Origin: a virus
Reading direction: 5' to 3' (one strand)
IMG/VR virus record: IMGVR_UViG_3300049595_002062
Location: 1 to 20,670 of that record
Length of the DNA stretch: 20,670 nt
Each line of letters opens with the position of its first letter. Position 1 is the stretch's first letter. The position numbers and the translations under genes are program-made. This document shows, piece after piece, positions 2 to 19,778 of this stretch. A model generated the notes under the pieces. It searched no databases. It was not told where the DNA came from and was given only the letters and a program-made list of their open reading frames with translations.

Positions 2-3000
2 GACTTATTAAACGTAACACAAATCGCAGCATCATACTTAGATACGCTTTATTTACAAATCAAGTTCTTAACAACAATCAAAGATCAATATACCAATATT
101 CAGATTGATGAAAAGCCATTCCCATTTTCTAAATCACTTTTAGAATCAATGGGTATTGTTGCACCAAGCTTATTTGTTGATGCCAAGTTGATGGAAGAAG
201 TCCTATCAAGGGATGAAGAAAGAAACTACGAAGATAAGCTTAATGAAATAAAGAATGTTATTTATCAAAATATTTACAGCAATCTTCAAAGCATTCTAAA
301 ATCAAAGGGAACTGAGAAATCAGTAAGAAACTTACTTCATTGCTTTGGTATCGATGAAGAGTTGGTTAAACTTTCAGTTTATTCAAACAACGACAGTCTC
401 AAAGTAGCTGACAACGTTTCAAATCTTACTGTTAAAAAGAAATCAATAAACCTTAACGATCCAGATAGATTCTACTCAACTATCTATCAATACAAAGATC
501 CTTCAAATACAGCTTCTACATCTTACATTTCTGGTGCTACATCAACAGAGCTAGATTATGTTCCATATACATTTGAAGCAGAAGTAGTATTCCCAAGAAA
601 ACTGAATAATGATCAACCAAACTATTTCGTAACATCATTTTCAAGTGCTTCAATCTTCGGTGGTCACACCGCTGTATCAAATGCAGATGATTACACTTGG
701 GCTTCACCAGATTACTTTGGATTTAAGGTATTAGCAGTTAAGGATTCTGAGAATCCAAACAATGCCAGATTCTGCTTACAAGTTCCAGCACTTTCTATCA
801 CTTTAACATCTAGCTTGTATACAGATGTATACCAAAGCGAGCGTTGGAACTTTGCCGTAAGAGTTAAACCAAGCAAACTAGAAAATGCAAATATTGTATC
901 TGGAACTACTAACGCAACATATACAATCGATTTCTATGGTGTAAATACTGACGGCGGTGTCGTAGTAAATGAGTTTTCTCTTTCCTCCTCAGTTTCTAAT
1001 GCAAATGGAAAGAACTTTGTAAGAGCAGCTAAGAGACTTTATTTTGGTGCAGAAAGAACAAACTTTACAGGCTCCTTGGTTAATGCCACTGATATCAAGC
1101 TATTAAATCTAAGAGCTTGGGCAGCATATCTAACTAATGAAGATATCCAACGCCATGCAGCCGATCCAATGAGCTATGGTATCGAATCCTTAAATGAAAA
1201 TGCATATTTAACACAAACAACATTCGATAATATTAGCGTACCAAAAGCCGAAACACTTCTTCTAGATTGGCAGTTTGATCAAATAACTGGTTCAAACTCT
1301 GGTTCTGGCGTACCCGGTACTAGTGATGGATACTTCCTAGTAGATGACGCAACAGGCGGTTCTGCTACATATTCCAAGTACAACACAGTTTTCAACAATC
1401 TAAAGAAATATCAATATGTTGGTAAGGGCGACCTATTCCCACAAAATGACAATACCATTATTGATACACAATATATCTTTACATCAAGATTAAATCATTT
1501 TGAAGATATAAGAAACTCACAACTTGTTAACATCCTTTCAGTTGAAGAGCAGACTTTATTCACTCGCCAAACACGTCCAATAAACTACTTCTTTAGTTTT
1601 GAAAAGAGCATGTACAGAACAATCTCTGAACAAATGCTCAATATGTTTGGTACTATCCTAGACTTCAATAATCTAGTTGGTGAGCCAGTAAACAAATATC
1701 GTAGAGAATATAAGAGCTTAGGCAAGCTTCGCCAAATGTTCTTTGAGAAAGTACAGAATACACCAGATCTAGATAAGTATCTAGACTTCTACAAGTGGAT
1801 TGACAGTGCAGTAGGTAAGTTCCTACTTCAACTTGTACCAGCATCAGCCGATACATCAGATGGACTTCTAAATGTAATCGAAAGCCATGCATTAGAACGC
1901 AACAAGCACCAATACAAGTTCCCAACAATAGAGTTCAAAGCACAAGTACCAGAAACTGGTTTTATTAGCGTTAACAAACATTTATACAACTGGCGTATTG
2001 GTTTTAGACCATTAAACAATCAAGAAGATGATAACTGTCTATATTGGAGTGATAGAGCAGAAAGAACAACCTCTCCTCTTTCCTCATCAGATGCTGGTGT
2101 GAATAATACAAGAACAAAGATCTTTGAAGCAAAAGCACAAGCTCTTAATCGTTCTTATACTACTCCATTACGTCTTGATGTTGGATTCAACAAGACAATA
2201 AAGGGTGGTGTAAACTTTGAATCAAGCAAGAATCTAGACTATGTTAAGATTGCAACAGAACCACATGGTCCACTTGATTCAGATGGTATCGTACAACCAC
2301 CAGCAAACTATCTATTTGCAGGCATTGTAAACACTTCTTCAGTATTGAAAGATTGTGACGACATATTAAACCCAACACAAAAGAAGAAATATTACTTCTC
2401 AACTGTTCACGGTAGAGATTATAATGCAACACAAACAAGTACTTACAGCCATGTTGTAAGCAGCAGAATCGCATTACCAGCAAACTTTGTAAGCGCAAGC
2501 ATTCAAGGCGGTTATCACGATTATGTTTCCGATCAGTTTATGAGCGGTGTTGATATAGTCAATATCCACAATGATACCTATGGTTCTTCAAATGAAGTTC
2601 CAATGCAAGGTCCATTCACTAATCAATGGGTTGGTGGAAATCAATCAAGACACATCACTTTAAATACTGGAAGTGATTCATATTTAACAAGACCAGAAGC
2701 TTGGAAGATTGCTCTTGGCGTTTCTGGTAGCAGCACAGATATCTATCAAACTGCTGTTGGTTGGATTGGCGCAGACTATCCATATCCAGAAGGTAATGAC
2801 TTTGAACCATCTTATCCAGTAGTTGCACACAAGAGAGCAACATACTTCCGCGACGAAACAGCAAAGCGTCCTGTAAACATTCGTAACATTCGTTCTTCAA
2901 CTGGTTCGGTAGATCTTGGTAACTATTCAAGAAACTATCAAGTTGTTCAAACAATGGGAAGAACAACAAACAATAGACTTCTTCTTGATCAAGTAACCCC

Positions 3001-6000
3001 AATCACTTCATCAGAACTATTTGGTGTTGTTAGAACCTCAGTAACCTCACCAAGAACCGATTTTACGCTTGTTGAAAGACCACGTACAGAAACAGTCATT
3101 GGTTCACGTTTCTCTGCTCCCGGTGATTCTAGAACCCTTTCAAGAGGTTTCTTGAATGCTTATGCAGAAGAGCTTTCACCATACAATGCAATGTCATTCA
3201 GAAATCGTCAAGTCATTGGCGATGGTAGAAGAACAGCCGATGCACTTACGAACGATATCGAGAGATACAACGAAACTGTATCTGGCGCAGTAGGTAAGTC
3301 ATTAACAGCATTACTAGCCAAACCAACATCAGTTGGTGGCTATGAATCTGGTTCTACAACAGTAGCATCGCTGCACAAAGTCAATAGAAACACACTTTAC
3401 ACTATTGATTATTCTGGCTCTGGTACAGCAGTTACAGCAGATTATGACAACGGATTTGTAACACATCAAATACCACAAAATGATGCTGGTTATGCTTGGA
3501 TTAGAGCAGCTATTTCTGGAACAGCAGATGATAGAAATCCTGCTTATTTTGGACACATACTTACAAACTACACAGTCCCATCTGGCACAACTTCAACTAC
3601 ACAATCTCTATCAATGATTTCTGCTTCTTTGTTTGGAAGTACGTTTAATATTACAAATAGTTTAAGAACACTTGGATATGATCAATCAATATCTGGTAAT
3701 AACTCAAGTTATCTACCAGTTGACTTTGTTGGTCTGAATAGTAATGTCTACGAAAGTGCTTCATACACAACACTACTTGCTACAACTGGTGCTTATAGAG
3801 ATTTGGCTGGTGGTTTATTAAAAACTAACGATGCTCTCGCTGAAACAACTGGAGCGGTAGTTATTGGCGATCAAGGAATCTTCTTTAAGCCAGATGGAAC
3901 AAAAATGTTTGTATATGGTGAAGATGGATTTGCTTTTTTTCCAAGAAATGAAAGAATAAGTGAATATAATCTTTCTACTGCATGGGACACGACCAGTGCT
4001 GTGTTCTCACAAACTGGCACTTTATCACTAGCTGCTATTAATTCAGCTTATCCGACTATTTTTACCTATGGAGCGAATTCTGGTGAAGGAACATTTTTTG
4101 AATTCTCGTCAGATGGAAGTAAACTGTATGTTTCTTGGGATAATGCATATGAATTATATGGTATACAAATATCATTTTTTGTGCAACAATACGATCTATC
4201 ATCATCTTGGGATATTTCAACTTTAACGCTTAATTCTGGTAGTTATGCACTAAAAAATGATATACCTCCAATAACACACGGAACTTTTTCTAATGATGGA
4301 ACAAAAATATATTGTACAGATGGTACAAGCATATTTAAATATAATCTGAGTACTGCTTGGGATATCACAACAATTTCTAGTACCTATGAAGGAACATTTA
4401 AGTTTCCAAGTATTTCTTTGTCTAGTGTTGATAGAATTAAGTTTTCATCAGATGGTACAAGATTATATGTATATGGGATTGATAACACAAGTATCAATAC
4501 TGTACCAAATTATGATCAAGTTGTTGGTAACTCAAGTTCGCAAAGAACTATAACAAGATTAAATTTATCTACTGCTTGGGATATTACTACAATACAATAT
4601 GATAAAATTGCTATTAAAGAAAATGATAACTATCTTTCTTCACCGCAGTATAGATTTTGGTCTTCTTTTGCCATAGGAAACGAAAATTTATCTAATGGTA
4701 AAATATATTATTCATTTCTAACTAATGGACTTTCTTTAGTTAGAACAGGTTCTTTAGTACAATATGATTATGTTTACAATAGACAAGTAGAATTAAATTC
4801 TTCTGCTTCTATGCTTAATTCACTATTATCGCATAGAGGTGGAGCTTATGGATATAATGTACCAAATCAAGTAAGAAATAGTGATCATCCAATTGTAAGA
4901 GTACAAAGAAAAGATAACTATATTACAGTTAATACAACAGAAGAAAATGTTCTTATAGAACGTGAGCCAGTAGTTTATTTTAATAGTCCACACGAACTTT
5001 ATATTGAAAATAAAGAAACAAATCAAATATTTGAAGCAACTTATTCTTATGATAATCTTCTTCAATCATTTGAAAATGAAAATCTTTTCAATAATTTAGT
5101 ACAATCTAAGAATACAACATTTTATGAAAAAGCTATAAAAATGTTAAAGAATAATGATAAATATAAGTTCTCTAAACTTGTTTATAAAACTTCAATTTAC
5201 CCAAAGAAAAAATATTCTACTTTATCTGATACAAGACAGAGGAAATACTATTCCTTCTCAGCTTGGAGAGACAACAGAGAAGATAGAGCAAAAATATATC
5301 AAGTATCAGATTTCAATTATGGAAATTTCTTAGTTTCTTATGAGAGTATTTGGCCTATGGATGGAAGAATTTATCCAAATGACATACGCACTGATTATAT
5401 CAGTTATAATCAATCTTTTTATGGTACTATTGGTGCAGAGGGTGTTTTACAAAACAAAACAATATTTGTTTGGATAAGCGGAACAACACCACAATCTACG
5501 TTTAGTTATTTGACTAGCAGTATAACAGCTTCTGTTTCTTATGCTGCTCCTCACACATTGATAGATAAGGGATATAACTTATTTTCTAGAAATTCGCTTT
5601 TAACTTCTCCTTTGGAACAGAATACGTATTTTAGTTATTATCCAATATATTCTGGTGGTGTATCTGCGACTAGTTCATTTAGAGGAGAAATATCATTTTA
5701 TGAACCAAGACCAGATAATACTGTTACTTGGACGACTGTTGAACACCCAAATATAAATTATGGACCATATGATGACTCATATTCAAACTGGTATGAAACA
5801 CTTCGTTTGAAAGCAAAAAATTACTCAGTATTACCAGAATATATTATTTCTGATGATACAAGATTATCTCTTCTAAATGCTGGCAAGTATAGAACCTCAT
5901 ATGCCAATGCACTAACTATCAGTGGTTCTTCAATTACAGGTTCAAACAGCCAATTTGATGATTTATATATAGAAACAGATAATCTTTCAAATATGGATAA

Positions 6001-9000
6001 TATTAAACAAGATTTATCTTCTGTAACTAAAACGATCAAATTAACACTTGATTGTGATGCTTTCTTAAAATTTAATGCTAAACCAGAACTTTATCCACAA
6101 GTTAGAACTGTAAAGATAGCTGAAAAGTTTATGAAAACAACTTTACCATATATATCTTTCTGGTCTGGTAGCACATCAAACATTTACAATTATCAGAACA
6201 ATAGTGAGTATCCAGTAGCATTAAAATCTTTTATTAATCCTTTATTTGCTCCCGGTATTCTTTACAATACAATAAAATCTGGTATTGCAGTAGATTATCC
6301 AATATTAACAAGTTCTTTAACACAATCTGTATTTATTACTGCTGCTAGTAGTTCATTTGCAAATTGGCGTAATTCAAACGGAATTGGAAATTCAAATTTT
6401 GATATTAGATTACCATTTGAAACATTATTAAAACCAGAAGCTTACTTACAACAAGTAATTGATATGTATGCTGATCGCTGGTATTCTACCACACCAGAGT
6501 TTCATTATAATGTAAATTACACATCTTCATGGACAGGAGAATTTTTAGATAATAGTTATAAATTGGCTATTAATAACTTCTTAGCAGAAACAATTGATTT
6601 CTTTGCACCAGAGGGAAAGCTAACAACTTTATTTTCTAAACCAGAAACAGAATTTAAACAAGTTGATCCAAATAAAAAATATCGTGCATTAGTTAAAATA
6701 TATAAATCAGCAACAAATAACAATCTTAAAGATTATTTAAACGCAACTGGTTCAAACGCCAGTACTTTATATACTAGACCACAATATACAAATAAAGCAA
6801 TTGAAACTATAACAATGTATAGTCGTCCAAGTGCTTTTGGACCTCCATCGACCAATAGAAATGCTATCAGTGCCGGTACAGTATTCCAGTATTTATCTAG
6901 AGGTTCTGAATTTACCTATGCTCCTTATACACCACCATATTATGATGGTTCCGCATGGGCTTTAATAACATTCACACCAACAGGTTCTAAAGCACATGTG
7001 CCAACATTAGAAGAAATACAAAATAATTTAGAAATAAAATATTTAAGATTAGAAGAAACTGTAAATTCCGGTTCAGATCAATATCTTGCATTTGGTCCAG
7101 TTGTTCACCATAATAATGCAATAAATAATAATGCAATGCAGATATCCGCTTCTGTTGATTTATTAAAGTTTATAAATACACAAGAATTTACATTAAATTC
7201 AACAGATGCAACAAAAACAAAAGCTGCTTCAAAAATTTGGGCAATACAAACTAAATTTGAAACACCAATATTAAACTTTAATCCTGCTGATACAGGTTAT
7301 ACTGCTTCATTTGTAAGTAATGTTTATTACCCTTCGCAACAAGATCTTCCAACATATGGAATGTGGCATCAATACGGTGTAATACCAGATGAAGGCAAGG
7401 GTGTATATTTGCAAGTAACTGATATTCCAAAAGATTATATTCTTTATGGTAATGAAAGTTCTTATAAAGATTTAACTGATACTGCAATTAAAGGCAATCC
7501 CGCATTAACCGCTTCTCTTGCTGATATCGTCGGTTTCAACAAAGATCCAATTAAACTTGGACAAGTTGCAGCACAAAAAGAAATCAAAGAAGCTGTCGTT
7601 GCAATACCATATATTCTTGAAAAGAATCAACGCAAGTTCTTCAAGCTAAACAAGAATGCTGTTAACTACATCAATAAGCAATACTTTGGCAAGGGTAAAG
7701 ATATTGAAAAGATTTCAGAAAATGCTGCATTAGATGTATCTAAGACCATATTAGATCAAATCCAATCACTTGAGGACTATGTTGTACCACCAGCATTTGA
7801 CTATCTAAATAATCAAGACATTGAACCGATCTCAATGTACGTATTTGAGTTTAAGTATAATCTTTCACAAGAAGATCTCTCACACATTTGGCAAGGTGTA
7901 CAACCAAATATTGCAGACAAGGTAGAGAATCAAAAGATCACAATATCTCACGAACTAAATGTAAATGAGCTAATGGATGTTGATAATCTTACTGAGAATC
8001 TACAATGGTTAGTATTCAAGATTAAGAAGAAGGCAAAGACCAACTACTTCAACAAAGTACTTCAATCTGCTCAAGAGAAAGACAAGAGAAAGGAAGATAA
8101 TCTTCTCAAACTCGGTCGTACTAAGAGAGCAGCAGCAAACGTACAAGAAGATAATGAGCTTCTATACAGCTACAACTGGCCTTATGATTATTTCTCACTT
8201 GTAGAACTAGCCAAGATTGACGCTATAATCGAGTTTGATGGTAATGAGAAGGTTGTTACAACAATAACTGATGATACAGATGCTACTACAACAAACGATA
8301 GCAAGCCATTCATAAACACTGGCAGAGAGTTCAAGAATGACGAAAGAGCAGATGATATCAGAGCCATGCAAGAACAACGTAAGAAGCAAGAGGAAGAAAA
8401 GAAGAATCGTGATAGAGCAGCAGCTGTTCGTGATTCCTTAAGAGCCGACAACAAGCTTCAACAACGTATTGAAGAAGAGAAAAAGAAAAATCAAGATAGA
8501 TCTACTGCTGTTAGAAATACACAACCAGCAAATAATAGACTAGATCAAGCTCTTGAACAACAAAGACAAGAGCGTGAAGCACAACAATCTAGACAAGAAG
8601 CTATTCAAAACGCTGGAAAGGTTAATACTGGCAAAGTAGTAGAACAAGCTCAACAACGAAGAGAAGAACAACAATCTAGACAAGAAGCCGTACAAAATGC
8701 TGGTAAAGTAAACAGCTCAACAGCTGCACAAAAAATAGAACAAAAGCAAGAAACTAGACAAGCTATACAGCAAGAACGCAGAGAAGCGGTACAAAATGCT
8801 GGTAGAGTAAATAATCAAACAGCATCACAGCAAACTCAACAAAAACAAGAAACAAGACAGGCTACACAACAAGAGCGTAGAGAAGCGGTACAAAATACTG
8901 GCAGAGTAGGCAATAGAGGAAATGCAGGTAGAGGAAGTAGTGGTGGTAAGTTGAACGACACTGAACAACAACAAGAAGTTGATTCTAATGTAGGTGGTGG

Positions 9001-9151
9001 TAGCGTAGGTGGAAGAGGACAAGGACAAGTTGCTGGTGGAACTAGAAATCCATTCTCTGCTGGCACTGGCGAAGGCATAACTTCTGATGGTGTCAAGAAG
9101 CCTTCTTCTGGTCGTGATACAACTAAAAATCCAAAAGGTGGTAGACGCTAA
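2..9151 (+). CDS. Giant multidomain phage structural protein (5' partial), probable tail/fibre-associated
   Basis: The reading frame is open from the first complete codon at position 2 (DLLNVTQIAASYLDTLYLQ...) through an in-frame ATG at 149 to TAA at 9149-9151. The true start therefore lies upstream, and 3,049 residues are visible. Residue numbers below count from the ATG at 149. A LamG/concanavalin-like beta region lies near residues 135-350, a repeat block with PDGTK and NLSTAWD motifs near 1245-1480, and a Q/E/R-rich tandem-repeat region near 2750-2920 followed by a Gly-rich basic tail. Just before the tail, segments such as MYVFEFKYNLSQEDL, LQWLVFKIKKKAKTNYF and YSYNWPYDYFSLVELAKIDA resemble an uncharacterised large protein family that I recall from marine phages. 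No signal peptide, membrane segment or enzyme motif was seen. Size, beta-rich Ser/Thr/Tyr composition and neighbours suggest a virion protein of the tail or fibre; the exact role is unknown. The stop overlaps the next start by one base (TAATG). Confidence 0.85.
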   Translation, partial: DLLNVTQIAASYLDTLYLQIKFLTTIKDQYTNIQIDEKPFPFSKSLLESMGIVAPSLFVDAKLMEEVLSRDEERNYEDKLNEIKNVIYQNIYSNLQSILKSKGTEKSVRNLLHCFGIDEELVKLSVYSNNDSLKVADNVSNLTVKKKSINLNDPDRFYSTIYQYKDPSNTASTSYISGATSTELDYVPYTFEAEVVFPRKLNNDQPNYFVTSFSSASIFGGHTAVSNADDYTWASPDYFGFKVLAVKDSENPNNARFCLQVPALSITLTSSLYTDVYQSERWNFAVRVKPSKLENANIVSGTTNATYTIDFYGVNTDGGVVVNEFSLSSSVSNANGKNFVRAAKRLYFGAERTNFTGSLVNATDIKLLNLRAWAAYLTNEDIQRHAADPMSYGIESLNENAYLTQTTFDNISVPKAETLLLDWQFDQITGSNSGSGVPGTSDGYFLVDDATGGSATYSKYNTVFNNLKKYQYVGKGDLFPQNDNTIIDTQYIFTSRLNHFEDIRNSQLVNILSVEEQTLFTRQTRPINYFFSFEKSMYRTISEQMLNMFGTILDFNNLVGEPVNKYRREYKSLGKLRQMFFEKVQNTPDLDKYLDFYKWIDSAVGKFLLQLVPASADTSDGLLNVIESHALERNKHQYKFPTIEFKAQVPETGFISVNKHLYNWRIGFRPLNNQEDDNCLYWSDRAERTTSPLSSSDAGVNNTRTKIFEAKAQALNRSYTTPLRLDVGFNKTIKGGVNFESSKNLDYVKIATEPHGPLDSDGIVQPPANYLFAGIVNTSSVLKDCDDILNPTQKKKYYFSTVHGRDYNATQTSTYSHVVSSRIALPANFVSASIQGGYHDYVSDQFMSGVDIVNIHNDTYGSSNEVPMQGPFTNQWVGGNQSRHITLNTGSDSYLTRPEAWKIALGVSGSSTDIYQTAVGWIGADYPYPEGNDFEPSYPVVAHKRATYFRDETAKRPVNIRNIRSSTGSVDLGNYSRNYQVVQTMGRTTNNRLLLDQVTPITSSELFGVVRTSVTSPRTDFTLVERPRTETVIGSRFSAPGDSRTLSRGFLNAYAEELSPYNAMSFRNRQVIGDGRRTADALTNDIERYNETVSGAVGKSLTALLAKPTSVGGYESGSTTVASLHKVNRNTLYTIDYSGSGTAVTADYDNGFVTHQIPQNDAGYAWIRAAISGTADDRNPAYFGHILTNYTVPSGTTSTTQSLSMISASLFGSTFNITNSLRTLGYDQSISGNNSSYLPVDFVGLNSNVYESASYTTLLATTGAYRDLAGGLLKTNDALAETTGAVVIGDQGIFFKPDGTKMFVYGEDGFAFFPRNERISEYNLSTAWDTTSAVFSQTGTLSLAAINSAYPTIFTYGANSGEGTFFEFSSDGSKLYVSWDNAYELYGIQISFFVQQYDLSSSWDISTLTLNSGSYALKNDIPPITHGTFSNDGTKIYCTDGTSIFKYNLSTAWDITTISSTYEGTFKFPSISLSSVDRIKFSSDGTRLYVYGIDNTSINTVPNYDQVVGNSSSQRTITRLNLSTAWDITTIQYDKIAIKENDNYLSSPQYRFWSSFAIGNENLSNGKIYYSFLTNGLSLVRTGSLVQYDYVYNRQVELNSSASMLNSLLSHRGGAYGYNVPNQVRNSDHPIVRVQRKDNYITVNTTEENVLIEREPVVYFNSPHELYIENKETNQIFEATYSYDNLLQSFENENLFNNLVQSKNTTFYEKAIKMLKNNDKYKFSKLVYKTSIYPKKKYSTLSDTRQRKYYSFSAWRDNREDRAKIYQVSDFNYGNFLVSYESIWPMDGRIYPNDIRTDYISYNQSFYGTIGAEGVLQNKTIFVWISGTTPQSTFSYLTSSITASVSYAAPHTLIDKGYNLFSRNSLLTSPLEQNTYFSYYPIYSGGVSATSSFRGEISFYEPRPDNTVTWTTVEHPNINYGPYDDSYSNWYETLRLKAKNYSVLPEYIISDDTRLSLLNAGKYRTSYANALTISGSSITGSNSQFDDLYIETDNLSNMDNIKQDLSSVTKTIKLTLDCDAFLKFNAKPELYPQVRTVKIAEKFMKTTLPYISFWSGSTSNIYNYQNNSEYPVALKSFINPLFAPGILYNTIKSGIAVDYPILTSSLTQSVFITAASSSFANWRNSNGIGNSNFDIRLPFETLLKPEAYLQQVIDMYADRWYSTTPEFHYNVNYTSSWTGEFLDNSYKLAINNFLAETIDFFAPEGKLTTLFSKPETEFKQVDPNKKYRALVKIYKSATNNNLKDYLNATGSNASTLYTRPQYTNKAIETITMYSRPSAFGPPSTNRNAISAGTVFQYLSRGSEFTYAPYTPPYYDGSAWALITFTPTGSKAHVPTLEEIQNNLEIKYLRLEETVNSGSDQYLAFGPVVHHNNAINNNAMQISASVDLLKFINTQEFTLNSTDATKTKAASKIWAIQTKFETPILNFNPADTGYTASFVSNVYYPSQQDLPTYGMWHQYGVIPDEGKGVYLQVTDIPKDYILYGNESSYKDLTDTAIKGNPALTASLADIVGFNKDPIKLGQVAAQKEIKEAVVAIPYILEKNQRKFFKLNKNAVNYINKQYFGKGKDIEKISENAALDVSKTILDQIQSLEDYVVPPAFDYLNNQDIEPISMYVFEFKYNLSQEDLSHIWQGVQPNIADKVENQKITISHELNVNELMDVDNLTENLQWLVFKIKKKAKTNYFNKVLQSAQEKDKRKEDNLLKLGRTKRAAANVQEDNELLYSYNWPYDYFSLVELAKIDAIIEFDGNEKVVTTITDDTDATTTNDSKPFINTGREFKNDERADDIRAMQEQRKKQEEEKKNRDRAAAVRDSLRADNKLQQRIEEEKKKNQDRSTAVRNTQPANNRLDQALEQQRQEREAQQSRQEAIQNAGKVNTGKVVEQAQQRREEQQSRQEAVQNAGKVNSSTAAQKIEQKQETRQAIQQERREAVQNAGRVNNQTASQQTQQKQETRQATQQERREAVQNTGRVGNRGNAGRGSSGGKLNDTEQQQEVDSNVGGGSVGGRGQGQVAGGTRNPFSAGTGEGITSDGVKKPSSGRDTTKNPKGGRR
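554..1200 (+). other. LamG/concanavalin-A-like region inside the giant structural protein
   Basis: About 215 residues with the feel of a jelly-roll carbohydrate-binding fold. It opens with YTFEAEVVFPRKL, has a central ERWNFAVRVKP strand, and ends with KRLYFGAERTNFTGSL followed by IKLLNLRAWAAYLTNEDIQ. The pattern 'W.(F/L)AV' followed by '(L/Y)(F/Y)(F/I)G' and then 'L.(L/V)..(L/A)YLT(D/N)EDI..HA' is typical of LamG-type domains in phage tail and adhesion proteins. The fold is inferred from pattern alone and was not tested with a profile search. If correct, it could bind surface glycans of the host or stabilise the particle. Confidence 0.45.
3881..4591 (+). repeat. Degenerate repeats coding beta-propeller-like blades (PDGTK ... 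NLSTAWD)
   Basis: Four degenerate repeats in the frame of the giant gene. Each has a strand such as FFKPDGTKMFVYG, FEFSSDGSKLYVSW, GTFSNDGTKIYCTD or IKFSSDGTRLYVYG. Each is followed by a closing strand: EYNLSTAWDTT at 3962, QYDLSSSWDIST at 4187, KYNLSTAWDITT at 4337 and RLNLSTAWDITT at 4556. Distances between closing strands are 225, 150 and 219 bases, i.e. blades of 50-75 residues. A weaker fifth blade may follow (SNGKIYYSF...LVQYDY, about 4690-4775). This layout matches beta-propeller repeats that I recall in marine phage and metagenome proteins. The fold and any binding role are inference. Confidence 0.75.
8414..8911 (+). repeat. Six tandem 28-33-residue repeats (RxxAVQNAGxVN) in the C-terminal tail
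   Basis: In-frame tandem repeats with an Arg-led core starting at 8414, 8498, 8591, 8678, 8777 and 8876. Steps are 84, 93, 87, 99 and 99 bases. The first two units are divergent (AAAVRDSLRADN, STAVRNTQPANN). The last four are clear: RQEAIQNAGKVN, RQEAVQNAGKVN, RREAVQNAGRVN and RREAVQNTGRVG. Between cores the sequence is Gln/Glu/Arg/Lys-rich and probably helical or coiled coil. The last two units have exactly the same 99-base period and are similar in DNA, which suggests recent unit duplication. A Gly-rich basic end follows (about 8912-9148). Confidence 0.85.
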
Positions 9152-15010: not shown

Positions 15011-15994
15011 ATGGCGTTTTTAGATAACAGCGGCGATATTATACTTGATGCCGTATTAACAGATACTGGTAGATTTAGATTAGCAAAAGGCGATGGTTCA
15101 TTCAAGATAGCAAAGTTTGTTTTTGCAGATGATGAGATCAACTATGGACTTTACGACAAGAATAATGCAAGTGGTTCCGCTTATTATGATTTAAGCATTC
15201 TTCAAACCCCAGTATTTGAAGCTTTTACCAACAATACATCAGTTGTTAAATCACCATTATTATCCATCTTAAATCAAAACCTTCTTTATCTACCAGTAAT
15301 GAAGCTGAATACAAACGTCACAACTACAAAAGGTGGTGCTCGTTTACAAAGAGGTGTGGAACAAATATTAACTTCAACTAATAATATTGCCGGTACTCCG
15401 CTTTATTCAGCTACAAACAGCTATATTGTAACTACCGAGTCTGGTTCGACCAATGCTATTGGTGGTGGTAGTGGTCTTTATGTAAATGGCGTATTCGACG
15501 GTTATACTCTCTTAACTCAAACAGCAATCAGAGTAGATCAAGGTTTGGATACCACTGAACTCCCAGCCACCAAGACACTTGAACCAACATTAGTTGAAAC
15601 ACAGTTTATAGTTGAACTAGATTATAGATTGGGAAGACTAGTAGGTGCTAAGGATGAAAAAGACTTTACTCCTTCTTTCGTAGATGATGATCAAGTTGCA
15701 AGTTATTATTTCACCAATAATGATATTGGAGCTGTCGAATCAATAGGAACAGATCAAAACAATCTACAAGCTGGTCAAGTTATCCAAGGACCAAGAGGCA
15801 ATCTTATTGCTTTCAAGATTCGTTCAAGCGAAGATTTAACAACAAGCACATTCTTGTTCACAAGACTAGGTGCAACAATGACATTCTCTGGTGTTTCTGG
15901 TACCTTCTACTACATCGATACCTTCGTTAAGGTTCGTGGTGTAACAACAGGTACTTCAATCTCAATACCAGTAAGATTTGTAAGAAAAGCATAA
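15011..15994 (+). CDS. Probable abundant virion structural protein, 'LTDTGR' N-terminal family
   Basis: A 327-residue protein beginning MAFLDNSGDIILDAVLTD, followed by TGRFRLAKGDGSFKIAKF and DDEINYGLY. This resembles a family I recall in uncultured marine phages, always among structural genes and without assigned function. The N-terminal 45 residues match the pattern of the 324-residue protein at 9151, so the two are distant paralogues. The rest is Ser/Thr/Gly-rich and beta-like, ending SISIPVRFVRKA. It has the best ribosome binding site of the structural block and uses C-ending codons (AAC, TTC, TAC) more than its AT-rich neighbours. Both fit high expression, for example a decoration, tail-sheath-associated or fibre protein. 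No enzymatic motif, signal peptide or membrane segment was seen. Confidence 0.75.
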   Translation: MAFLDNSGDIILDAVLTDTGRFRLAKGDGSFKIAKFVFADDEINYGLYDKNNASGSAYYDLSILQTPVFEAFTNNTSVVKSPLLSILNQNLLYLPVMKLNTNVTTTKGGARLQRGVEQILTSTNNIAGTPLYSATNSYIVTTESGSTNAIGGGSGLYVNGVFDGYTLLTQTAIRVDQGLDTTELPATKTLEPTLVETQFIVELDYRLGRLVGAKDEKDFTPSFVDDDQVASYYFTNNDIGAVESIGTDQNNLQAGQVIQGPRGNLIAFKIRSSEDLTTSTFLFTRLGATMTFSGVSGTFYYIDTFVKVRGVTTGTSISIPVRFVRKA

Positions 15995-16016: not shown

Positions 16017-17036
16017 ATGGCAACAACATTTAAAGATTTTACAAGTTCAGATGTAGTAAACACAAAAACATTATTGAACGAAGTAATACCACTTACAGGA
16101 ACAATCGTTTCTGGTACTTATGCAGATGCAAATATTAAAAACTATGCTCACGGTATCTTTCAATCAGTATATGATTATCCATACCTAAGCTCATCAGCAA
16201 ATCATATATTCGATCTTACCTTTGGTTATGCTGCAACATCTTCTTTTTCATCATCAGCAAATACACAAAATGATAAGAAGATAAATATTTATAATCAAAT
16301 GGCTCAAGTTCTTGTTGGATATAATACATCTGGCAGTATCCAACGCTTTGACCAAAATGGTGATTTATCAGAGGGAAATAAAATAGATGAATCTTTTGTT
16401 TTCTCATTTGCAAGATTACTAACAAAAGATGAAATAAAGAAAGGATCTTTCACCATTTCTCTTGGTACTGCAAATGCTTATGCAACACCATTTACAACAG
16501 TAACCACTATCGGTGATTATGGTGCAGCATCTGAATATAGAACAAACTCACCAGCTGGTGAATATGGTATTCTTTATACATCTTCCGCAACTCCAAACAG
16601 CACAAGCGGTGTAGGTCTTATATATTACCAAGCTGGTGTGGCAATACTGTCCGCCTCAGTATTTGGTAGTTCAGTTGTACTATCTGGCTCTTCAACAAGA
16701 AATGCTGTTCTTACCGGCTCAACAATACAAGCTATCGCAAACTCAGTAAGAAATCGTATTCAAAACATTCAGTTTAATAACACCACAGAACTAAACTCAA
16801 CAATCTACTTCTGTCGTGCAAATCACAACGAATATAACTATTCATCAAATCCAACTTATGTTTCTTCAAGTAAGATTGTAGTCAAGAACGAAGCTAGCGA
16901 TCCACCAATCGCTTATATTACAACGGTAGGTTTATATTCAGCAGATAATGAACTTATGGCAGTTGCTAAGTTATCAGAACCATTAAAGAAGAGTGTAGAT
17001 AATGAGATAGTTATTAGGACACGCTTGGACTATTGA
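16017..17036 (+). CDS. Probable virion structural protein, paralogue of the 385-aa protein
   Basis: A 339-residue beta-rich, Ser/Thr-rich protein. Near residues 140-150 it has an IKKGSFTISL strand, near 200 a VGLIYYQAGVAILSAS strand, and at the end YITTVGLYSADNELMAVAKL followed by SEPLKKSVDNEIVIRTRLDY. All three elements recur in the same order in the 385-residue protein at 18077, so the two are paralogues. I recall similar C-termini in structural proteins of uncultured marine phages, without a defined role. The start is preceded by AAAGG in a 22-base gap after the 327-residue gene, so the two are probably co-transcribed. The gene is separated from its paralogue by the homing endonuclease gene. 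A fibre, tail or decoration part is likely. Confidence 0.75.
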   Translation: MATTFKDFTSSDVVNTKTLLNEVIPLTGTIVSGTYADANIKNYAHGIFQSVYDYPYLSSSANHIFDLTFGYAATSSFSSSANTQNDKKINIYNQMAQVLVGYNTSGSIQRFDQNGDLSEGNKIDESFVFSFARLLTKDEIKKGSFTISLGTANAYATPFTTVTTIGDYGAASEYRTNSPAGEYGILYTSSATPNSTSGVGLIYYQAGVAILSASVFGSSVVLSGSSTRNAVLTGSTIQAIANSVRNRIQNIQFNNTTELNSTIYFCRANHNEYNYSSNPTYVSSSKIVVKNEASDPPIAYITTVGLYSADNELMAVAKLSEPLKKSVDNEIVIRTRLDY

Positions 17037-17075
17037 TTTACTAAACAGTATAAGTTTCTTTTTCATCATCTATAC

Positions 17076-17117
17076 TTTTCCCCTTTCAATAAACTATTTA
17101 CTATTGAGAGGGGAAAA
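17076..17117 (+). promoter_or_regulatory. Hairpin that sequesters the ribosome binding site of the homing endonuclease
   Basis: An inverted repeat with arms 17076-17091 (TTTTCCCCTTTCAATA) and 17102-17117 (TATTGAGAGGGGAAAA) around a 10-base loop. As RNA of the + strand all 16 positions pair; 15 are Watson-Crick and one is U-G (17085 with 17108). The 3' arm contains the whole ribosome binding site GAGAGGGG and ends on the A of the ATG at 17117. Translation from a read-through transcript would therefore be blocked until the hairpin opens. No U-tract follows, so it is not a standard terminator. RBS-sequestering hairpins are known for phage homing endonuclease genes, such as I-TevI of T4. Confidence 0.75.
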
Positions 17118-18067
17118 TGCCTTTATACACCAAAAAATGTACAATATGCAATAATGACTTTAATACCAATAGAAGTCATACATTGTTTTGTTCAACCAAA
17201 TGTGCAAGCAAAGACAAATATGAGAAAAACAAACTACGATACGAAAGAGTATGCGAATGTTGTGGTATTGTTTTCAATAGTCCAAAAAAAGATACAAGAT
17301 TTTGCTCCCCAGCTTGTATCAATACATCAACTAAAAAACATGAAGATATAGAAAATAAGTGTTTGGAATGTGGTAATCTTTTTACCGTTTCTTATATAAA
17401 AAGAGAAAGAAAGTTTTGTTCTAGGTCTTGCGCTACTATCAACTTAAACAACAACAGAACAGAAGAGACAAATAAAAAAATATCTGATACACATAAAGAA
17501 AGATATTTAAATGGAACGAATATCCATCCATTTCTAGGTAAAAATCTTACAGAAGAACACAAACAATCAATATCTTCCAGTAGAATATCAAAAGGTTCTT
17601 CTGTTGGAGAAAAAAATCCAATGTATGGAAAAAATCACACATCAACAACAAGAGAAAAAATATCTTCTACAAGAAGCACTAGAATGATTAATGGCGATTA
17701 CAACTCGTGGTTTTGCAAAGGAACATATCGTTCTACAAAAATAAATAAAGATATATATTTTAAAAGCTCTTGGGAAAAGAGTGTTTTAGAATATCTAGAT
17801 AATCAAGAAGATGTTGTTTTTTTCATGTATGAGCCATTTTCAATATCGTTTTATTATAACGAAAATAAACGACATTATATTCCAGACTTATTAATAACTT
17901 ACAAAGATGGAACTCAAAGACTTGTTGAAATAAAGCCTAGTTATTATGTAGATGCTGAGATTAATAAAGCAAAGTTTGAATCTGCCAAAAAATATTGTAA
18001 CGATAAGGGTATCATATTTGAAGTATGGACAGAAAAAACCATAGACAACCTATTTATAAAAGAGTAG
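17117..18067 (+). CDS. Freestanding homing endonuclease: three zinc fingers, NUMOD3 motifs, PD-(D/E)XK-like nuclease domain
   Basis: A 316-residue protein. The first 105 residues hold three similar Cys4 zinc fingers: C8/C11/C25/C29, C46/C49/C63/C67 and C82/C85/C101/C105, each ending FCS..C. Two NUMOD3-type DNA-binding motifs follow: HPFLGKNLTEEHKQSIS near 137 and NPMYGKNHTSTTREKIS near 167. The C-terminal domain fits a PD-(D/E)XK nuclease, with a candidate E in SSWEKSVLEYL (about 220), YIPDLL (D about 257) and LVEIKP (E about 271, K about 273). Such proteins cut a target allele so that their own gene is copied across during mixed infection. The gene lies between two paralogous structural genes, is AT-rich, and has its own ribosome binding site locked in a hairpin, all typical of a mobile intruder. 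No GIY-YIG or HNH motif is present. Catalytic residues are assigned by eye. Confidence 0.85.
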   Translation: MPLYTKKCTICNNDFNTNRSHTLFCSTKCASKDKYEKNKLRYERVCECCGIVFNSPKKDTRFCSPACINTSTKKHEDIENKCLECGNLFTVSYIKRERKFCSRSCATINLNNNRTEETNKKISDTHKERYLNGTNIHPFLGKNLTEEHKQSISSSRISKGSSVGEKNPMYGKNHTSTTREKISSTRSTRMINGDYNSWFCKGTYRSTKINKDIYFKSSWEKSVLEYLDNQEDVVFFMYEPFSISFYYNENKRHYIPDLLITYKDGTQRLVEIKPSYYVDAEINKAKFESAKKYCNDKGIIFEVWTEKTIDNLFIKE

Positions 18068-18076
18068 AAATACATC

Positions 18077-19234
18077 ATGGCATTACATAAAATAAAACAA
18101 AATGAACTTTTTATAAACCAAATAGAGTTTAATCCAAATGTTTCATTTTATGTATATGATGGAAAAACCTATTATAATAACCAACCAGAAATCTCTGGTG
18201 CTTTTACATCTAATATAACCAATGTACCCGTTGGTTATATTAGTTTATATGAAGAAAACGTTGATAGAAGCCAAGCAGGAACTGGTTTAATATATCCTTT
18301 TGTTACCAAAGAAGGAAGCTTAACTTCTTTTAAAACCATATCAACAACCAGTTTTAACTCAGATTTCTCTTATGGTGATACAATAACTGGTTCTTATCCT
18401 CTTAGTGCTAGCATTCAAAGAGAGTTTTATCAAGTTGGTGAAGAAAGACGAAGAGTTGATGCTTTAAGAAATACTCTTAACTATTATCTTCCTTTTAGCA
18501 AACATTATGCCTATTCATCTTCTCTTGGTGATAAATCAAATCAAGATTTAAATCTTATCAGTATTCCTTCTATATTTTATGGAAGCAAAATACAAAAAGG
18601 TTCTGTAACATTAGATTTTTATCACACTGGTACACTAGCCGGTAGATTACAAGATGTAAATAAAAATGGAGAGCTAATACAAACTATTGGTTCAAACGGT
18701 TCTGGTTCGGTAGCTGGTGTAGTTCTTTATACAGAAGGTTTTATTGTACTTACTGGCTCTTGGGGAATAGCACCACCGGATAACTATCTTGATAGTATGG
18801 ACACCCCAAGTGGTTCTTGGATTTACTTCGGTGCTGGTATGTATGGCACAGAAACCTATACTTCTGGTATGCTTGATTCTTCAAGCTTTAACCTATCTTT
18901 TGAAGGAACTTCAAAGATTCCAGTAATGACAATGTTTGCTCATGCAAAGCGTGGTGAACTAAACAACTCTGTAAATCCAACATTTATTAGCCAACAAACA
19001 AGAAAAGAGCCACTAACTGGTTCTAGTGCTTATATTGAATATGATAAAATGGAACCAGCAAACGTCGTTTCGGGATCATATAACCAAGAAGAATATTTAG
19101 AAAAAACAACATTTATAACAACAATAAAGTTGTACGACGAGAATAAAAATGTTATAGGTGTTGCTAAGTTAGCTAAACCTGTGCGTAAAACACAAGATAG
19201 AGACTTATCATTTAAACTAAAAATCGATTTATAA
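18077..19234 (+). CDS. Probable virion structural protein, paralogue of the 339-aa protein
   Basis: A 385-residue beta-rich protein. It shares ordered elements with the 339-residue protein at 16017: KIQKGSVTLDFY against EIKKGSFTISL, AGVVLYTEGFIVLTGSW against VGLIYYQAGVAILSAS, and the C-terminus FITTIKLYDENKNVIGVAKL followed by AKPVRKTQDRDLSFKLKIDL. It has an extra N-terminal section (about 120 residues) with QREFYQVGEERRRVDALRNTLNYYLPFS. It starts nine bases after the homing endonuclease stop, and only a weak AGAG-type binding site lies upstream, inside the end of the endonuclease gene. Its expression may therefore depend on coupling to that gene. A tail or fibre part is likely from its paralogue and neighbours; no enzyme motif was seen. 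Confidence 0.75.
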   Translation: MALHKIKQNELFINQIEFNPNVSFYVYDGKTYYNNQPEISGAFTSNITNVPVGYISLYEENVDRSQAGTGLIYPFVTKEGSLTSFKTISTTSFNSDFSYGDTITGSYPLSASIQREFYQVGEERRRVDALRNTLNYYLPFSKHYAYSSSLGDKSNQDLNLISIPSIFYGSKIQKGSVTLDFYHTGTLAGRLQDVNKNGELIQTIGSNGSGSVAGVVLYTEGFIVLTGSWGIAPPDNYLDSMDTPSGSWIYFGAGMYGTETYTSGMLDSSSFNLSFEGTSKIPVMTMFAHAKRGELNNSVNPTFISQQTRKEPLTGSSAYIEYDKMEPANVVSGSYNQEEYLEKTTFITTIKLYDENKNVIGVAKLAKPVRKTQDRDLSFKLKIDL

Positions 19235-19235
19235 A

Positions 19236-19778
19236 ATGAATACAAAACCAACTTATTTAGGTGTGGATGTAAGCACCTCCAAGATTGGCATCGCTTTGAT
19301 AGATGAAGATAAAAAAGTGATTGTCAGTGAAGTAATAAAACTAAAACCAGAAAATAGTTTAGAAGAAAGAGCAATACTCTTTGAAAACAAACTTCTAAAA
19401 CTAAACAAATATTATTATATCTCTGAGATATTTGTTGAAGAACCATTCGTTGCTTTTGGTGGGGGCAAAACAACCGCTCAAACTATGGCAATATTGCAAC
19501 GATTTAATGGAATGTGCTCTTTCGTTGTTCGTAAAGTATTTGATAGAGATCCACAAATGGTTAGTGTACGCTCTGCTAGAACAAAGCTTGGTATAAAAAT
19601 ACCAAGAGGTCTAAAAGAGAAAGAAACAAAAAAGATTATCATCGAGTGGGCAGCTGAACAATACCCAGACTTTAAATACGAACTAACAACTCATGGTAAT
19701 CCATTACCCGGTACAGATGATAGAGCAGACGCATTAGTAATAGCTACTTATGGACTTGAGAAGCTATTTAGTGTATGA
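19236..19778 (+). CDS. RuvC-like Holliday junction resolvase (RNase H fold)
   Basis: A 180-residue protein with the layout of RuvC-type resolvases, which cut four-way DNA junctions using two metal ions held by four acidic residues. The first strand YLGVDVSTSKIGIALID gives D11, the FVEEPF strand gives E68 (or E69), and the C-terminal helix TDDRADALVIATYG gives D162 and D165. The length is close to that of bacterial RuvC (about 170-180). Its likely job is resolving branched replication and recombination intermediates before packaging. It begins one base after the stop of the structural gene (TAAAATG) with no visible ribosome binding site, so translation probably depends on reinitiation. It overlaps the next gene by four bases (ATGA). 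It opens the DNA-metabolism block. Confidence 0.85.
   Translation: MNTKPTYLGVDVSTSKIGIALIDEDKKVIVSEVIKLKPENSLEERAILFENKLLKLNKYYYISEIFVEEPFVAFGGGKTTAQTMAILQRFNGMCSFVVRKVFDRDPQMVSVRSARTKLGIKIPRGLKEKETKKIIIEWAAEQYPDFKYELTTHGNPLPGTDDRADALVIATYGLEKLFSV

Follow-up and report, generated by a model that had tools for sequence, protein, structure and literature searches.

A freestanding nuclease gene lodged between two tail genes of an uncultured phage is preceded by an RNA hairpin that covers its Shine-Dalgarno (SD) sequence GAGAGGGG and the A of its start codon, and that carries a promoter-like motif in its loop. On the basis of the sequence, this arrangement probably silences translation of the nuclease from read-through transcripts, while permitting its expression from a promoter of its own within the loop. 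The analysis concerns the window, i.e., the whole stretch of 20,670 nt that makes up positions 1 to 20,670 of the IMG/VR record IMGVR_UViG_3300049595_002062 (Table 1).

In the mechanism proposed here, a homing endonuclease gene with its own leader would lie between the two tail genes. On the long read-through messages of the upstream structural operon this leader would fold and bury the SD and the start codon, such that little or no nuclease is made. RNA polymerase starting at the loop motif ACTATTTA would give a short message beginning at about the SD, and this message, being devoid of the 5′ arm, would leave the SD free and translatable. In this way, expression of the nuclease would be shielded from the operon and would depend on a promoter of its own. 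The action of the motif as a promoter, its late timing, its start point, the effect on translation and the homing of the gene are what we infer from these features.

Table 1. Coordinates of the nuclease gene, its leader and the neighbouring features in the window
Feature	Position	Strand	Remarks
Promoter-like motif ACTATTTAA	14985..14993	+	ahead of the gene at 15011, at the head of the structural transcription unit upstream
Upstream tail gene tail339	16017..17036	+	stop TGA; insertion at its 3′ end; 90+ related contigs conserve the gene
Leader 5′ of the hairpin	17037..17075	+	its first part aligns with the leader of L123, a decayed copy
Hairpin 5′ arm (anti-SD arm)	17076..17091	+	TTTTCCCCTTTCAATA; from pairing and fold
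Hairpin loop	17092-17101	+	10 nt
Promoter-like motif ACTATTTA	17093..17100	+	inside the loop, 23 nt before the ATG; from motif enrichment
Hairpin 3′ arm	17102..17117	+	TATTGAGAGGGGAAAA; last base is the A of the start codon
Shine-Dalgarno GAGAGGGG	17106..17113	+	wholly within the 3′ arm; anti-SD duplex -8.2 kcal/mol
Freestanding nuclease gene	17117..18067	+	316 aa; three CxxC zinc-finger-like repeats, two NUMOD3 motifs, TnsA-like PD-(D/E)XK domain
TnsA-like nuclease domain	17807..18034	+	residues 231-306; D257, E271, K273; E220 just before the domain
Promoter-like motif CTATTTAT	18050..18057	+	within the 3′-terminal part of the nuclease ORF; 27 nt ahead of tail385
Downstream tail gene tail385	18077..19234	+	directly adjoins tail339 in relatives without the insert

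The hairpin and the burial of the ribosome-binding site

Inspection of the + strand between 17076 and 17117 bears out the original prediction that all 16 positions pair, 15 of them as Watson-Crick pairs and one as U-G (17085/17108). The hairpin, as computed from the sequence, is real. The 56-nt hairpin element folds at -21.1 kcal/mol (z -7.4) and its 111-nt context gives a z of -4.1, in both cases with 0 of 200 shuffles equally stable. The window holds just one stem of 16 or more pairs that has no more than one G-U and a loop no longer than 20 nt, as against 0.015 expected per window in random sequence with the dinucleotide statistics of the window. This expectation, together with the placement of the stem exactly on the SD and start codon, the motif in its loop and the retention of SD pairing in the related locus L025 (see below), renders a functionless inverted repeat that arose by chance exceedingly improbable, even if the structural claims are all predictions and some other long stems are also present in the window. 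No Rfam covariance model matches the region 16900-17300 up to E=1, and a pattern search of viral contigs with the exact hairpin as DNA gave no match.

The SD, which lies in the 3′ arm as had been claimed, is the second strongest among the starts compared. The computed cost of opening the ribosome site of the nuclease is 20.4 kcal/mol, as opposed to 1.2-6.8 kcal/mol at the other starts compared, with higher-cost exceptions at 19775 (13.2 kcal/mol) and at 149 (12.0 kcal/mol), the latter probably an internal ATG of an open frame and not a real start. When the upstream arm alone was shuffled (mononucleotide shuffles, minimum energies), the occlusion was reproduced in 0 of 100 cases. Further, the computed cost amounts to 22-23 kcal/mol on read-through RNA versus 4-7 kcal/mol for RNA starting at 17084-17108. 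A good SD is thus held in a stable hairpin on the read-through RNA (20-23 kcal/mol, z -7.4; computed), and these costs support the occlusion originally proposed. As SDs of the AAGGTGG/AGAGG type stand before several genes in the window, occlusion of such a site would be meaningful in this phage. The stop codon of the upstream tail gene lies about 40 nt before the 5′ arm, which led us to reject translational coupling to that gene.

The position of the hairpin directly behind a tail gene raises the alternative that it stabilises, processes (as a 3′-end barrier or RNase site) or ends the upstream tail mRNA, with SD burial as a side effect, and terminator-like stems in the native gaps of L116 and L133 point in the same direction. 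However, there is no U tract on either strand, both arms being followed by AAAA, which departs from the GC-rich stem and U tract of an intrinsic terminator; neither sigma-70 sites nor terminators are predicted in the nuclease leader; and nuclease-free relatives, except L170, have no comparable stem behind tail339. We regard this alternative as highly unlikely. In the native tail-gene gaps of L170 (2840-2890), L116 (2850-2890) and L133 (2905-2940) the motif CTATTTAT sits in a hairpin loop, and in the latter two the stem is followed by a T run.

The nuclease and its insertion site

The original description of the gene as a zinc-finger/NUMOD3 freestanding nuclease holds as to these motifs, but it missed the catalytic domain, which is a TnsA-like PD-(D/E)XK domain. 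This assignment rests on a match of the C-terminal domain to PF08722 (E 3.7e-15), on the predicted catalytic residues E220, PD257 and E271-x-K273, invariant in eight relatives, and on the fold: Tn7 TnsA (1t0f, E 6e-7) is the first Foldseek match of an AlphaFold2 model in which the catalytic domain is mostly at pLDDT 86-94, the linker is poor and the pTM is 0.39. No GIY-YIG or HNH Pfam match was found up to E=1, and the lack of such a domain places the nuclease outside the T4 mob and seg families. Single-protein searches in viral and genome contigs gave no match, and a first alignment gave no conserved stretch; later searches recovered L025 and 80 more loci. Elsewhere, the window contains a very long virion-type ORF (2-9151, over 3000 aa) with a C-terminal Q/E/R-rich repeat tail.

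The two tail genes adjoin directly or nearly so in most of the relatives first collected; of 80 further loci, 75 have a gap of less than 60 nt between them. A search of the first 16 tail-gene records did not turn up the nuclease. L025 carries a 45%-identical nuclease at exactly the same tail339/tail385 junction, and L123 a decayed copy comprising the leader start and the last 28 codons (68% identical), the middle having been deleted. Additionally, a different, Vsr-like NUMOD3 nuclease stands behind a tail339 homologue (L033), TnsA-like nucleases 34% identical to that of the window stand behind a related tail gene (L026-L028), and a related zinc-finger protein follows tail385 in L141-L143. On the evidence of these loci, the 3′ ends of these tail genes appear as a recurrent insertion site. 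The insert is thus present in some genomes and relatives have a precise empty site, a pattern which supports the earlier claim of a mobile nuclease gene in a structural operon and identifies the gene as a mobile insert and a putative homing endonuclease gene.

At occupied sites (window 17034-17036, L025 1430-1432, L123 and L026-L028) the stop codon is TGA and the next base is T. At most empty sites it is TAA or TAG, and the first bases may be supplied by the insert itself. In L025 the downstream tail gene is split in two by an extra ORF of 166 aa (2480-3937). In other loci a non-nuclease gene of 650-700 nt fills the tail339/tail385 gap (L003 262-958, L004 5304-6000, L114, L146 and L155). The end of the nuclease ORF carries the promoter-like motif before the downstream tail gene in the window (18050-18057), in L025 (about 2467-2475) and in the remnant ORF end of L123. 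The motif is read there in two different frames, as though the insert served to restore a promoter for its neighbour.

Conservation of the pairing and hairpins at other homing genes

Alignment of the leaders of L025 and the window, unconstrained and with the structure of the window imposed, shows that 12 of 14 scorable pairs are kept, three of them through two-sided changes (C-G to G-C, C-G to U-A and C-G to G-U); the third row, L123, has no 3′ arm and adds almost nothing. Shifting the partner by 1-3 columns lowers the pairing from 94% to 57-68%. This covariation gives the hairpin moderate support, and not more, because it comes from two sequences and an SD readily pairs with U-rich tracts. 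The best fold of L025 itself has a slightly different register, in which the SD is also buried (3 of 200 shuffles equally stable). The check for covariation among relatives, which the original prediction had suggested, thus found pairing retained at the same site, whereas several more distant TnsA-like relatives at other sites (L018, L019 and L020) have no such hairpin.

The sense strand had previously been argued for from the one U-G pair, an argument that does not carry far, in that a single pair says little and the minus strand of the region folds nearly equally well (z -4.3). Better evidence comes from the stem of L025, in which about five pairs are G-U; on the opposite strand, or within a DNA palindrome, these positions would be mismatched. 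These G-U pairs likewise bear on the alternative that the inverted repeat acts as DNA, either as an operator for the nuclease or another dimeric protein, or as a cruciform, overlapping the promoter. Such a role would accord with a near-perfect palindrome around a promoter-like motif, with the folding of the minus strand and with the fact that I-TevI also represses its own promoter. It is nevertheless very unlikely, as the arm is centred on the SD and start codon and, in other homing genes, the SD is buried by unrelated sequences.

Comparison of 67 homing-type genes with 315 control genes indicates that SD-burying structure is commoner in the former (Mann-Whitney p 0.0007), with an SD-burial z of at least 3 in 6 of 67 as against 6 of 315 (p 0.009; mononucleotide shuffles, minimum energies); in both tests, genes that are partly related count as independent observations, and a simple rule was used to choose their starts. 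The burial is clear in L098 (DUF559 type), L033 (Vsr-like) and L068 (HNH), and weaker in L025 and L026-L028. Most homing genes in the set are without such a hairpin, so that the SD-burying hairpin appears to be a recurrent solution and not a family trait. At one further locus, L038 (1930-1970), a true T4-type TATAAATA immediately precedes a hairpin (AGATAT/ATATCT) formed around the SD and start of another NUMOD3 gene.

The promoter-like motif in the loop and across the phage group

A k-mer count without prior assumption, over 81 leaders from 16 sequences of the group including the window, found CTATTTAT in 16 leaders (0.40 expected) and ACTATTTA in 17 (0.47 expected). In the later locus set, CTATTTA is present in 46 of 64 distinct tail327 leaders versus 1.4 expected, mostly 23-27 nt before the start, and many of the remaining leaders carry ACTAATTA; the 64 leaders are related and are not independent events, although the remainder of the leader is poorly conserved. 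The motif sits 20-50 nt 5′ of structural genes across the phage group. The T4-type late promoter TATAAATA occurs in none of the 81 leaders, and ACTATTTAT is enriched instead. Before structural genes (leaders in L002-L017 and L106-L185), ACTATTTAT or ACTAATTA has the look of a divergent T4-type late promoter; a literature search found no report of either motif in that position. A string common to the leaders of the window and L026-L028, CATCA[CT]CTATACT, was dropped as a promoter candidate because CTATACT is not convincingly enriched in leaders (1 versus 0.27 expected). A search for the sliding clamp (PF02916) gave no match and was uninformative.

That the motif lies at varying distances from the SD speaks for a promoter rather than for a component of the ribosome-binding site. 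The genes behind the motif being structural, it is probably a late promoter. In the nuclease leader it is observed in the loop, at a position that would give a transcript without the 5′ arm, the start being predicted from the letters of the DNA. The T4 late element is placed from -13 on, and an Aeh1 variant has a/gC at -13/-12 (PMC2988020); as ACTATTTA begins like this variant, the +1 of the short transcript is expected at about 17106, where the SD begins, leaving a predicted leader of only about 11 nt. The gain from a start at the motif, 14.7 kcal/mol for the nuclease leader, is the largest among 94 motif-bearing leaders (median 0.9). A native tail gene, tail385 of L170, has a comparable gain of 14.4 kcal/mol and a comparable structure; hence the arrangement is not exclusive to nucleases.

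Alternatively, the hairpin could silence read-through while ACTATTTA lies idle, with nuclease arising only from rare opening of the hairpin, a pure limitation of dose. The hairpin and the SD burial stand either way, and a motif of 7-9 nt could occur by chance; the loop motif deviates from the consensus in having a C at the final T position, and that of L025 has one mismatch (CTATATA). Yet the motif lies in the loop, on the right strand and at the usual distance (23 nt; mode 23-27), and three of the four best sites in the window precede genes (15011, the nuclease and the downstream tail gene) when ranked by a matrix that, being built from CTATTTA sites, ranks sites and does not test enrichment. 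An idle motif is therefore unlikely. Of the original proposal, silencing of read-through persists as the most likely role, while its limit on nuclease dose gives way to expression from the gene's own promoter, as the loop motif would allow. Since the upstream operon apparently relies on this promoter motif as well, the main function of the hairpin may be to insulate the gene from read-through, with early/late timing a lesser one.

Relation to known systems and implications

SD-sequestering hairpins with a late promoter inside have been described for I-TevI, I-TevII, I-TevIII, T4 segB and Aeh1 mobE (PMC2988022; PMC3014915). The likeness to the I-TevI hairpin that was originally drawn stands as to the arrangement: in the T4 I-TevI leader, too, a stable hairpin buries the SD in long transcripts (PMC2988022; PMC3014915), and a promoter inside or at the hairpin, here predicted, yields short transcripts without the 5′ arm. 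I-TevI is an intron-encoded GIY-YIG enzyme in td, whereas here there is no intron, the nuclease is TnsA-like, the promoter sequence is another one and the upstream operon is itself structural, with the same promoter motif. That the gene is freestanding is, contrary to the earlier view, no novelty, as T4 segB and Aeh1 mobE are also freestanding and likewise combine an SD-sequestering hairpin with a late promoter (PMC2988022), which is predicted in the present case. However, segB is of the GIY-YIG and mobE of the HNH type, in contrast to the zinc-finger/NUMOD3/TnsA-like nuclease described here, which belongs to another phage group and a tail-gene site.

In the leaders of T4 gene e (lysozyme) and soc, too, a start-site hairpin silences early read-through RNA (PMC3014915), but those are native phage genes and the present one is mobile. 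Like the T4 TATAAATA and Aeh1 late promoters, the motif is an AT-rich element of 8-9 bp before structural genes with no -35 box; ACTATTTA begins with AC as in the Aeh1 variant (PMC2988020), while the middle AA of T4 TATAAATA is TT here. The CPT_Moonbeam26 endonuclease of Bacillus phage Moonbeam shares the combination of NUMOD3 and a TnsA-like domain, but it is 28% identical over the C-terminal half, has another neighbourhood and lacks a strong SD hairpin. The principle, then, appears to be that known from I-TevI, segB and mobE; what appears to be new is the nuclease class, the promoter sequence, the insertion site and the phage group.

A broader proposition can be put forward tentatively, namely that an SD-burying hairpin with the phage's own late promoter in the loop forms a portable insulating cassette, which unrelated nuclease classes (GIY-YIG, HNH, TnsA-like, Vsr-like and DUF559) might have acquired repeatedly and which, in this uncultured T4-related group, might use a new late promoter, ACTATTTAT/ACTAATTAT. 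The tail gene bears a weak resemblance to phage RM378, which is only a lead towards placing the group in the Far-T4 phages, in which T4 core genes of transcription regulation have been reported as not detected (PMC4360716). If the cassette proposition is true, ACTATTTAT/ACTAATTAT would also tell how phages of this group transcribe their late genes. The motif provides a testable late-promoter candidate for them. With the present case, the control known from I-TevI, segB and mobE would reach a large uncultured phage group and a nuclease of the TnsA-like type; the findings suggest a repeated origin of the SD-hairpin device.
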